Of a stretch of 38,354 nt of DNA, positions 13,542 to 16,438 are shown in pieces. Made by a program: the position numbers and the translations under genes. Position 1 is the first letter of the stretch. Every line of letters begins with the position of its first letter. The stretch is from Chitinophagaceae bacterium. GTDB taxonomy: Bacteria; Bacteroidota; Bacteroidia; Chitinophagales; Chitinophagaceae. The stretch covers positions 1-38,354 of the forward strand of contig SCQV01000469.1 of assembly GCA_004299085.1 (NCBI GenBank), given 5' to 3'. A model generated the notes under the pieces. It was given only the letters and a program-made list of their open reading frames with translations, was not told where the DNA came from and did no database searches.

Positions 13542-13725
13542 GCCTTTTCAAATTTGTATTGTACTGCCGATATCTTTACATTCGTTTCTCACATCTTTTT
13601 GTTATTCCGAAAATAGCCAAAGCGTGCCTGTTGACAAACCGTTCAATAAGGGTCGTATGAAATTTTACAGAATCTATTATTCTGGAAAAATATTGATAAA
13701 TCACATCTTTTAATCTTTTGTTCAT

Positions 13726-13753
13726 TATATTTGCATGTTCACGGTTCGTGAAC
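13726..13753 (+). promoter_or_regulatory. promoter -7 element with overlapping operator-like palindrome for the AbiE pair
   Basis: TATATTTG at 13726-13733 fits the TAnnTTTG -7 consensus. Three bases later GTTCACG-GTT-CGTGAAC (13737-13753) is a perfect 7-bp inverted repeat with a 3-base centre, placed at the expected transcription start and 31 bases before the AbiEi ATG. This is the position expected for self-repression by the winged-helix antitoxin; the assignment is inference. Confidence 0.55.
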
Positions 13754-13784
13754 AATTAGGTAAAATAGAAATGGAGTAACATAA

Positions 13785-14783
13785 ATGGAAGAAAAAATTG
13801 TAAATACCGCTTTAGATAATCTCAGAAAATATACTGGAATCGAGGGAAATTTTACGCTCACCAGAGAAAATAGGCTGGATGGTAAAGTGGACTTCCAACT
13901 TCCAAAAGGCAAAGAAGTATTTGTGGCAGAAGTGAAAAGAGAAGTTCGCAATTATCAGTTGCCAATTATTGAAAATACGGCAAGACAGTATAAAAATTTC
14001 CTATTGATAGCCGAAACCATCTTCCCGAATATAAAGGAGGAACTGCGCAAACAGGAAATCGCCTATTTAGATGCGGCAGGAAATATCTTTCTGAAAACAG
14101 CCAGGCATTATTTATGGATAGAAGGACATAAAGTTGAAAAGGCCAACATTGAAAAAGCTAATCGTGCTTTCACGGCTACGGGTCTAAAAGTGGTTTATCT
14201 TTTCCTAACAGATGAACATTATCTTAACCTCCCCCAACGCATCATAGCCGAAGAAGCGGGAGTTGCTTTGGGAAATATCAATTACATCATCAGAGGTTTA
14301 AAGGAGCAAAAATTTCTTATTCAAAAAGGAAAAAAAGAACTCCAAATTCTCCATAAAAAGGAACTGCTGGAGAAATGGATAATGAGTTTTGAAGAAAAAC
14401 TGAAACCTGCTCTACATACCGGTAATTTCAGATTTACGAAAACCGGCGATGAAAAGGATTGGAATCAAATGACATTAAAACCACATGAGACATATTGGGG
14501 AGGCGAACCGGCAGGAGCATTGCTTACTAATTATCTTCAGCCTGAAGTGTTTACCATTTATACAAGTGAAACAAGAAACGATTTGATAAAAAATTACAGG
14601 ATTGTACCTGATGCGAAGGGCAATATCCAAGTGTATAGCAAATTTTGGAAAGAACACGACACAAAAAATAAAACTATAGTAAATCCCATTTTGATTTACA
14701 CTGATTTACTAAATACAGGCAACAGCAGATGCATTGAAACGGCACAAATGATATATGACAAACACATTAAACAGAACATATAG
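13785..14783 (+). CDS. AbiEi family antitoxin (type IV toxin-antitoxin)
   Basis: A 332-residue protein matching AbiEi-family antitoxins of type IV systems. Residues 1 to about 110 contain D36 (KVDFQL) and E49-V-K51 (VAEVKREV), followed by NTARQYK. This is the D...ExK arrangement of restriction-endonuclease-like folds and may be a degenerate or active nuclease-like domain. A stretch like YLDAAGNIFLK (about 95-105) precedes a winged helix at about 145-185 (LPQRIIAEEAGVALGNINY). The C-terminal half is an effector-type domain seen in the family. It overlaps the toxin gene by 29 bases, so the two are translationally linked. An earlier ATG at 13771 stops after two codons. Confidence 0.85.
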   Translation: MEEKIVNTALDNLRKYTGIEGNFTLTRENRLDGKVDFQLPKGKEVFVAEVKREVRNYQLPIIENTARQYKNFLLIAETIFPNIKEELRKQEIAYLDAAGNIFLKTARHYLWIEGHKVEKANIEKANRAFTATGLKVVYLFLTDEHYLNLPQRIIAEEAGVALGNINYIIRGLKEQKFLIQKGKKELQILHKKELLEKWIMSFEEKLKPALHTGNFRFTKTGDEKDWNQMTLKPHETYWGGEPAGALLTNYLQPEVFTIYTSETRNDLIKNYRIVPDAKGNIQVYSKFWKEHDTKNKTIVNPILIYTDLLNTGNSRCIETAQMIYDKHIKQNI

Positions 14784-15594
14784 AGAACTTTCGAGCCCAT
14801 ACTTCAAAGAGGTTTTTCGGCTCATTGATAAAATTTGTAATAACCTGAGGGTTGAATATTACTTAATCGGGGCACAGGCGAGAAATATCCATTTGTTGAA
14901 AGGCGGTATTGCACCATGCCGTGGCACACAGGATATTGATTTTGCAGTTATGTTACCAGAAATGAAAGTGTATGATGAAATAAAGGATGGATTGGAGAAA
15001 AAAGGATTCAGAAAAGTGAATGAACCTTACCGGCTGGTTCATGACAAGACAAATACCGTGATTGATTTGCTTCCATTTGGTGAAATTGAAGAAGAAGGGA
15101 CAGTAAGATTTACAGACAGAGAAACAGAGCTTTCGGTAATAGGGATGAAAGAAGTAAGCGCACACGTTATGAAGGTAAACCTGGAAGAAATAACCATAAA
15201 AGTTTCACCTTTAGAAGGTATGATTATTTTAAAATTAATTTCGTTTAGCGAGAAACCTGACAGGACAAAAGATCTCGATGATATAAATGATATTCTAAGC
15301 CATTATTTTGATATAAATGAAGATAGATTTTATGAAGAACATGCAGATATAGTGGATGAAATAGAAACGGATGATTTTACACTGTTGGCAGGCTCCAGAA
15401 TACTTGGTAGAGATATGAAAAGGATTTTGAAGCAGTCCAAGAAATTGACCAATCAAATTGAACATGTTATTCAAAATGAGCTGGGAGAAAATATCGGAAG
15501 CATTACGAAATACTTTCTCAGCCAAAATTATGTAAAGGATTACGAACTGATTAAAAATATTTTCACTCAACTATTGAAGGGAATAAAAGAATAG
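14755..15594 (+). CDS. AbiEii/AbiGii family nucleotidyltransferase toxin
   Basis: A 279-residue cytoplasmic protein. The nucleotidyltransferase core shows YLIGAQARNIH (about 36-46) followed by GTQDIDFAV, whose D60-x-D62 pair would bind metal. A third acidic position may be the aspartate in TVIDLLPFG. In studied AbiE systems this enzyme transfers nucleotides to targets such as tRNA and blocks growth, giving abortive phage defence, while AbiEi represses and neutralises it. The catalytic residues are present and the frame is intact, so it is probably functional. Start ATG at 14755 lies inside the antitoxin gene. Confidence 0.88.
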   Translation: MTNTLNRTYRELSSPYFKEVFRLIDKICNNLRVEYYLIGAQARNIHLLKGGIAPCRGTQDIDFAVMLPEMKVYDEIKDGLEKKGFRKVNEPYRLVHDKTNTVIDLLPFGEIEEEGTVRFTDRETELSVIGMKEVSAHVMKVNLEEITIKVSPLEGMIILKLISFSEKPDRTKDLDDINDILSHYFDINEDRFYEEHADIVDEIETDDFTLLAGSRILGRDMKRILKQSKKLTNQIEHVIQNELGENIGSITKYFLSQNYVKDYELIKNIFTQLLKGIKE

Positions 15595-15727: not shown

Positions 15728-16438
15728 CTATTTTTGATTGACTGCCAGCCCTTTATAATTTTTCTCATTCTCCTGTAAAAGCTGTTCTGCCAGCCATAAA
15801 TCCACCGGCTTCGTAATTTTTATATTCTGTTCTTCCCCCTCAATGAGGTGAACAGGATAGGCTGCTTTTTCCACCACAGTGGCTTCATCTGTAAATGAAT
15901 CTTCATAAGGACTAAAGAAAGCTGTGATAATAATTTCCGAAAAAAAAGCCTGTGGAGTCTGAACAGTCCTGAAATCATGCCTGTCCACCGAAGTATTACC
16001 CTCCTTTTCCAGCCGGCGAATACTTTCTTTTAACGGCAGGCAGGGAACTGCAGTCCCTTCTTTTATAGTTTCATTATAACAGGAATGAATGAGATGCGAA
16101 CTGATCAAAGGCCTGACACCGTCATGGACAAAAACAACCGAAGCTGTTTTTATTTCCTGTAATCCGCTTTTTACTGAGTGAAAACGTGTTTCTCCTCCCC
16201 TGACGGTAACAATTTCTTTACCGGGAAAATAAGCAAGCACCTGCTCCACATAATTTTCATCCCCGGTGGCATACACTAAAATGATATTAATATCTTCAAA
16301 TGCCTGATAGAATGAATGAATGGAATAATATAAAACAGGTTTACCCGCTAACAGCAGATATTGTTTAGGGGTCGAATTTTCCATCCTGACTCCTTTCCCT
16401 GCGGCAACAATGATGGCATATTTATCGCGCGCTTCCAT
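15728..16438 (-). CDS. ispD: 2-C-methyl-D-erythritol 4-phosphate cytidylyltransferase
   Basis: A 236-residue cytoplasmic enzyme of the MEP isoprenoid pathway that joins methylerythritol 4-phosphate with CTP. The N-terminal nucleotide-binding loop is AAGKGVRM (residues 12-19), followed by TPKQYLLLAGKPVL; the VFVHDGVRPL block and the TVQTPQAF block are characteristic. The length is normal. It starts 12 bases after the stop of queA on the same strand and is likely co-transcribed with it. Confidence 0.96.
   Translation of the reverse strand: MEARDKYAIIVAAGKGVRMENSTPKQYLLLAGKPVLYYSIHSFYQAFEDINIILVYATGDENYVEQVLAYFPGKEIVTVRGGETRFHSVKSGLQEIKTASVVFVHDGVRPLISSHLIHSCYNETIKEGTAVPCLPLKESIRRLEKEGNTSVDRHDFRTVQTPQAFFSEIIITAFFSPYEDSFTDEATVVEKAAYPVHLIEGEEQNIKITKPVDLWLAEQLLQENEKNYKGLAVNQK

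Follow-up and report, generated by a model that had tools for sequence, protein, structure and literature searches.

A COG4861 antitoxin with a predicted PD-(D/E)XK-like N-terminal domain that probably serves as a binding platform

Introduction

Does an antitoxin encoded in a Chitinophagaceae genome begin with a nuclease-like domain, and if so, does that domain cut nucleic acid or hold it? The question is raised by two overlapping genes on the forward strand of a 38,354-nucleotide stretch of contig SCQV01000469.1 (assembly GCA_004299085.1), analysed at its full length and referred to here as the window. An antitoxin gene (13785..14783, 332 aa) is followed by a gene for an AbiEii/DUF1814-like nucleotidyltransferase toxin (14755..15594, 279 aa). 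A sequence-only reading had picked out D36, E49-V-K51 and NTARQYK (64–70) in the antitoxin and D60-x-D62 in the toxin, all of which are present at these positions, and had offered two alternatives for the antitoxin N-terminus, a nuclease or a binding platform. The reading that we favor, with a probability of roughly 0.6, is a toxin-antitoxin cassette in which a tRNA-modifying nucleotidyltransferase toxin is paired with a self-repressing, three-part antitoxin. The PD-(D/E)XK-like N-domain of this antitoxin would act mainly as a binding platform, with cutting being dispensable.

Results and Discussion

The C-terminal region of the antitoxin (residues 187–328, 14343..14768, + strand) matches the AbiEi_2 family PF09952 with E 6.6e-31 and 108 bits, against a cut-off of 21. 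The antitoxin frame shares 29 bases with that of the toxin, which carries the nucleotidyltransferase residues G39, D60-x-D62, D104, K160 and D176 and scores slightly below the 22.5-bit cut-off of PF08843 (AbiEii; 21.7 bits, E 2.2e-4). With an overlapping toxin frame of this kind downstream of a COG4861/AbiEi_2 antitoxin, the pair is of the COG4861–COG4849 type (AbiEi_2 plus AbiEii-like toxin) and not a textbook AbiEi (COG5340) system. The COG4861–COG4849 pairing has been described, in passages that report no shared sequence identity between COG5340 and COG4861 (PMC3985639). Alignment by hhalign of the family profile (113 members, 101 of them used by the program) with 10 AbiEi_1 proteins gave a Prob of 1.2%, a comparison with COG5340 that covered AbiEi_1 alone. 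The contrast with textbook AbiEi drawn in the sequence-only reading was misplaced: because the antitoxin belongs to a different family, COG4861/AbiEi_2, the textbook domain order is the wrong yardstick. PF09952, equated with COG4861, is included in a list of toxin-antitoxin and Abi regulators within PMC7251935, and Mycobacterium tuberculosis Rv0837c is given as a putative COG4861 antitoxin within PMC7319586. By analogy with related toxins, for which tRNA is the target in the portions of PMC7725324 and PMC10435456 that concern them, the AbiEii-like toxin most likely adds nucleotides to tRNA.

No PADLOC model matched the window antitoxin. Among 79 relatives, 8 were matched by mad1, and two AbiEi models had one weak match apiece. 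The defence models barely recognise COG4861 antitoxins, so counts of AbiE-like systems may miss many COG4861 pairs. The window's own genome also encodes an unrelated antitoxin of the AbiEi_1 type (PF09407, E 1.9e-24) at G000:C34:20726-21157 (L194).

The bases preceding the antitoxin gene contain a candidate promoter and operator. The sequence TATATTTG (13726..13733, + strand) resembles the Bacteroidetes -7 promoter element, whose consensus is TAnnTTTG; no clear -33 element was seen. Of the 113 family members, 67 have a TAnnTTTG in the 150 bases ahead of the gene, compared with 7–18 in ten mononucleotide shuffles. Just after TATATTTG, and ending 30 bases before the ATG, lies the palindrome TGTTCACG-GTT-CGTGAACA (13736..13754, no strand assigned). 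It was first spotted in a listing of the best inverted repeats, and TGTTCA-N(2-9)-TGAACA was then scored in the 150 upstream bases. Exact matches were found in 43 of the 113 upstream regions, matches with at most one mismatch in 68 and with at most two in 90. Ten dinucleotide shuffles of the same regions gave 0–1, 0–3 and 6–19, respectively, and elsewhere in the loci (498,751 bases) the counts were 3, 18 and 280. Spacing between the arms was always 7 or 8 in sites with at most one mismatch. Although these data also served to define the motif, such circularity cannot account for so large a contrast.

At one mismatch or fewer, the operator is found in Bacteroidota, in 3/10 Pseudomonadota plasmid loci (L142, L147, L151), in 1/3 cyanobacterial loci (L140) and in Arthrobacter (L155). 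It is absent at this threshold from 45 of the 113 upstream regions, including 7/10 Pseudomonadota plasmid and 2/3 cyanobacterial loci. Within the window's own genome (95% complete), the palindrome occurs at one place only within two mismatches, the one described here. Such a conserved, genome-unique operator makes self-repression by the antitoxin very likely, as in AbiE; the inverted repeat sits at the promoter and is conserved among relatives, as expected of an autoregulated AbiE-like operon. Promoter inverted repeats have been shown for AbiE and Rv2827c in parts of PMC3985639 and PMC7319586. We infer that the antitoxin, probably via its winged helix, binds TGTTCACG-N3-CGTGAACA and represses its own operon. 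A second operator copy is present 72–85 bp further upstream in some loci (e.g. L029, L031, L052, L081).

The winged helix itself is predicted at residues ~126–190 (14160..14354, + strand) from AlphaFold secondary structure and VIA-align, with Z up to 8.7 against CRP/FNR and MarR winged helices. Weak helix-turn-helix Pfam matches to this region were obtained in part of the relatives. Ahead of it, residues 1–118 (13785..14138, + strand) are predicted by AlphaFold, Foldseek and VIA-align to be PD-(D/E)XK-like. The relatives used for structure prediction came from 78 of 80 loci, L063 (broken near its start) and L106 (truncated) being excluded. With 79 sequences, AlphaFold returned a pLDDT of 93.2 and pTM of 0.87 for residues 1–118 alone, and 91.6 and 0.69 for the full-length antitoxin. 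The N-domain model comprises a helix (2–17), three strands (20–25, 33–39 and 42–54), a helix (56–68) and a strand (72–79). Helix, three strands, helix and strand is the core order of the PD-(D/E)XK superfamily, and the predicted model has this alpha-beta-beta-beta-alpha-beta core.

The top five Foldseek matches in the PDB were 3dnx and NucS/EndoMS entries (E 2.8e-3 to 7.5e-3, probability 0.94–0.99), with unrelated folds such as chaperonins and acetyl-CoA carboxylase intermixed from rank 9 (E ≥ 0.05). VIA-align placed 1y88 (Z 7.2, rmsd 3.7 over 101 residues) and NucS 2vld_B (Z 7.2, rmsd 3.3 over 92 residues) at the head of its list, ahead of PaqCI (Z 7.0) and EndoMS (6.7), then Cdn1, XisH, Card1, Can2 and restriction enzymes; nitrilases also came up, at Z of about 4. 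Judged by title or known fold, most of the VIA-align top 20 are of the PD-(D/E)XK type. All PDB matches of the N-domain lie below Z 8, where, as the tool cautions, a match may stem from a widespread arrangement, and none reaches a Foldseek E of 1e-3, so that the fold is likely and not proven. In the viral structure library, one uncharacterised archaeal-virus protein matched at E 1.7e-4, and the 50 matches listed included Mrr-like, VRR-NUC and RecB-family proteins along with others of no evident relation. The second-best viral match (BFVD A0A8S5PFG1, E 2.0e-3) is a siphovirus protein of 381 aa named 'Antitoxin'. Pfam searches of 79 N-domains matched 46 families; the 25 listed include Mrr_cat in 4 domains (best E 0.11) and NOV_C in 2 (best E 0.081), which we take to be PD-(D/E)XK families, among unrelated families that score alike or better. 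PDB sequence searches with the whole antitoxin, its profile and the N-domain profile returned nothing relevant. No AbiEi structure appeared among the 50 matches listed for the full-length model, a result that carries no weight.

Residues 1–118 thus likely carry a PD-(D/E)XK-like domain, as modelled. The proposal of a nuclease-like N-terminus ahead of the winged helix gains from the predicted fold and from best matches that are mostly PD-(D/E)XK proteins, and is held back by scores that are all modest. The antitoxin would then consist of three parts: the PD-(D/E)XK-like N-domain (1–118), the winged helix (~126–190) and the AbiEi_2 C-domain (187–328). The N-domain looks usual in COG4861 antitoxins rather than added in the window copy, judging from alignment columns 32, 49 and 51, all three of which are occupied in 109 of 112 non-redundant homologues; most homologues came from full-length queries or profiles, which biases this count towards proteins having the N-domain. 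Among the papers listed from the open-licence literature, none was recognised as describing a PD-(D/E)XK domain in AbiEi_2/COG4861 proteins, and the passages matched in PMC8741817, PMC10782964 and PMC7251935 do not describe one.

Conservation of the candidate active-site residues was assessed in a set of 156 proteins, the window copy included. Removal of near-copies at ≥ 85% identity (the window's own loci among them) and of proteins shorter than 280 aa (3/156) left 113 non-redundant members of 293–378 aa, that is, the window and 112 homologues. None of D36, E49 and K51 is invariant in the alignment. D36 (13890..13892, + strand), proposed earlier as the acidic residue, is D in just 13/112 homologues and ranks 110 of 118 N-domain positions by site rate (rank 1 being slowest). 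Conserved instead is D32 (13878..13880, + strand), with D in 89/112 and rank 18. The E49-V-K51 pair (13929..13937, + strand) lies in strand 42–54 of the AlphaFold model; position 49 is E in 76/112 and D in 6 more (rank 40), and position 51 is K in 89 and R in 14 more (rank 12). Right after this strand follows a conserved basic residue, R55 (13947..13949, + strand; R in 84/112, rank 15). In the 80 nearest loci, D32 is kept in 70, E49 in 59 (D in 6 more), K51 in 70 (R in 7 more) and R55 in 77, with 2 loci gapped. The most conserved motif of the domain is [DE]xxGN, represented by D96-A-A-G99-N100 (14070..14084, + strand). N100, G99, D96 and Y94 are the slowest sites of the N-domain, and D or E at 96, G99 and N100 are each found in 112/112 homologues, exceeding the nuclease-like site in conservation.

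A bare D...[DE]xK motif was dropped as evidence. The pattern D-x(8,30)-[DE]-x-K is found in 317 of 731 segments, each 110 residues long, that were drawn from another 21 reading frames of the window, and in 1034 of 2000 shuffles of antitoxin residues 1–110. Because it is this common by chance, the motif says nothing, and the weight rests on fold and conservation. A RecB-like QxxxY motif in NTARQYK was likewise rejected, since both Q68 and Y69 belong to the fastest-evolving positions of the domain (ranks 111 and 107 of 118).

The positions of the conserved residues were compared with those of NucS (D160, E174 and K176, with E127, Q187 and Y191) and EndoMS (D165, E179 and K181), as given in a section of PMC7343888. 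With residues 1–98 of the model aligned on NucS 126–231 and EndoMS 131–236, E49-x-K51 falls on both ExK pairs by simple offset. D32 comes out 3 residues short of the NucS/EndoMS aspartate, so that a small gap is needed in the alignment. In the model, D32 precedes strand 33–39 and E49-V-K51 is within strand 42–54, the strands at which an acidic residue and [DE]xK would be expected. The N-domain may be regarded as a candidate descendant of a nuclease-type fold, with the D32/E49/K51 site retained in the window copy.

Retention of this triad across the family was examined next to that of the toxin residues. D32, E/D49 and K51 occur together in 59 of the 113 proteins, are not kept together in 51, and 3 are gapped; accepting K51R raises the count to 64 of the 110 scorable proteins. 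The family-wide conservation expected of nucleases is accordingly not seen. On a tree built from residues 120–332 only, and so leaving out the N-domain, the triad label needs 33 changes, at least 15 of them forced by starred branches. Shuffled labels need a mean of 36.4 changes, with 65 of 500 shuffles as low, and the observed label shows hardly more clustering than these. Triads are kept in Bacteroidota, in Pseudomonadota (4/10 plasmid rows) and in Cyanobacteria (1/3), which suggests, without proof, an ancestral origin of the site; gain and loss look alike in these counts.

Beside full-length toxins, the triad is repeatedly absent. Among 74 operons with such a toxin (> 85% of the profile covered, a selection that favors intact toxins), the window included, 42 keep the triad, 30 do not and 2 are gapped. 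Three of these 30 differ by K51R alone, and 19 lack both E and D at position 49. Among the residues that replace E49 in operons with a full toxin are Q, I, V, A, T and F, of which the hydrophobic ones would not suit a metal site. Toxin residues G39, D60, D62, D104, K160 and D176 are unchanged in 73/73 full-length partners; among 611 sites ranked by rate, toxin D60 and D62 rank 5 and E49 ranks 293. The other 39 of 112 partners are not full-length by profile, comprising 20 with none found (some at a contig end), 17 partial and 2 cut by the contig. Several of the partial partners, L139, L142 and L144 among them, carry full-gene annotations and are divergent, not broken. In L056, L004, L009, L013, L016 and others, no toxin was found downstream by profile although more than 1 kb follows the antitoxin gene; these may be orphan antitoxins, or loci with toxins too divergent for the profile. 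Absence of the triad was also considered as a sign of a dying operon and rejected. Independent pairs pointed weakly in the expected direction (5.1 the same way, 2.1 the other way and 7.8 with no difference), which was not significant (median p 0.45).

Repeated absence of the triad beside full-length toxins makes cutting probably dispensable. The PD-(D/E)XK superfamily has known inactive families, and the patchy triad therefore lowers the case for a nuclease and not the case for the fold. Of the two alternatives offered at the outset, the platform is favored over an essential nuclease as the more likely role, the triad not being kept in 30 of 72 scorable full-toxin operons. The N-domain would mainly grip nucleic acid or a partner, and cutting need not occur for antitoxin function. 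Slow evolution at D32 and K51 and the presence of the triad in several phyla are more than a purely structural platform predicts, and triad-keeping members such as the window copy may still have nuclease activity.

An active, metal-dependent nuclease in the D-E-K members, cutting phage, plasmid or toxin-encoding nucleic acid as a second activity, would account for the 59 of 113 proteins with the full triad, Pseudomonadota and Cyanobacteria members among them, for the slow K51 and D32 sites and for an ExK in register with NucS. We judge it unlikely given the 30 of 72 operons described above (19 without E/D at 49), the scatter of the label over the tree and the mid-range rate of E49 compared with toxin D60 and D62. 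A bolder version is less probable again: COG4861 antitoxins would be two-handed, acting as repressor and neutraliser and, through D32/E49/K51, as a true metal-dependent nuclease against invading DNA or the toxin transcript upon toxin release. The site, found in several phyla, would then be ancestral and have been inactivated time and again by single substitutions wherever the cost of cutting outweighs its benefit. Somewhat easier to entertain, and still doubtful, is a domain that binds no nucleic acid, a structural or toxin-binding module built around the [DE]xxGN hairpin (96–100), K84 and R88, with the old site a relic. N100, G99, D96 and Y94 being slowest in the domain, with G99 and N100 universal, suits this module well; K51, R55 and D32 are slow as well, however, indicating that the old pocket is still constrained. 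Least probable by some way is a generic alpha/beta fold with no relation to PD-(D/E)XK, in which D32, E49 and K51 coincide by accident. The modest PDB scores, the unrelated folds lower in the lists and the chance frequency of the bare motif are all compatible with it, whereas PD-(D/E)XK proteins make up most of the best matches, and the D conserved just before the second strand and the ExK within the third occupy the places that PD-(D/E)XK gives them.

Other COG4861–COG4849 pairs share with the window pair the antitoxin Pfam domain, gene order, nucleotidyltransferase toxin partner and similar length; the passages of the sources on them do not describe the N-domain fold or the operator. AbiE of Streptococcus agalactiae and MenAT3/MenAT4 also combine a nucleotidyltransferase toxin with a winged-helix antitoxin, but in their COG5340 AbiEi antitoxins the winged helix comes first and the C-domain is a different one. 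Likeness to NucS/EndoMS lies in the predicted fold of residues 1–98, with the ExK in register and an aspartate ahead of it. The DNA that NucS enzymes cleave is branched, mismatched or deaminated (PMC7343888), whereas the window family keeps its putative site in 59/110 members. An antitoxin acting as a nuclease has a precedent in the type V system GhoST, in which cleavage of the toxin mRNA by GhoS is experimental; GhoS has another fold, and cutting by the window antitoxin is just a possibility.

A widespread and little-studied antitoxin family thereby gains a testable architecture of nuclease-like domain, winged helix and AbiEi_2 domain. D32, E49, K51, R55 and the [DE]xxGN hairpin are singled out, D36 is corrected and an operator sequence is supplied. 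Should cutting prove real, the pair would possess an additional and independent weapon.

Of 195 genomes from the same family, 21 contain homologues of the antitoxin (counting the own genome and one short fragment), as do 49 of 395 genomes of the phylum (counting the own genome and several short, weak matches). Genome contigs yielded 504 confirmed homologous stretches, of which the best 80 were retained. Homologues are also present in 31 plasmid records, some of them from Vibrio, Paraburkholderia and Cyanobacteria, and a search with a proteobacterial relative reached Arthrobacter. Phage records gave no antitoxin match and viral contigs gave one (L149). In the congener G030 (97% complete, no antitoxin match in the genome), the flanking genes for a 125-aa protein and ispD are convergent with a 7-bp overlap (L185, G030:C37), and no toxin-antitoxin pair lies between them. 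The COG4861–COG4849 cassette is present in the window genome and missing at the same site of the congener. DNA similarity between the two stops at 13542 and returns at 15867, and on this comparison the cassette has been either gained in the window genome or lost in G030.
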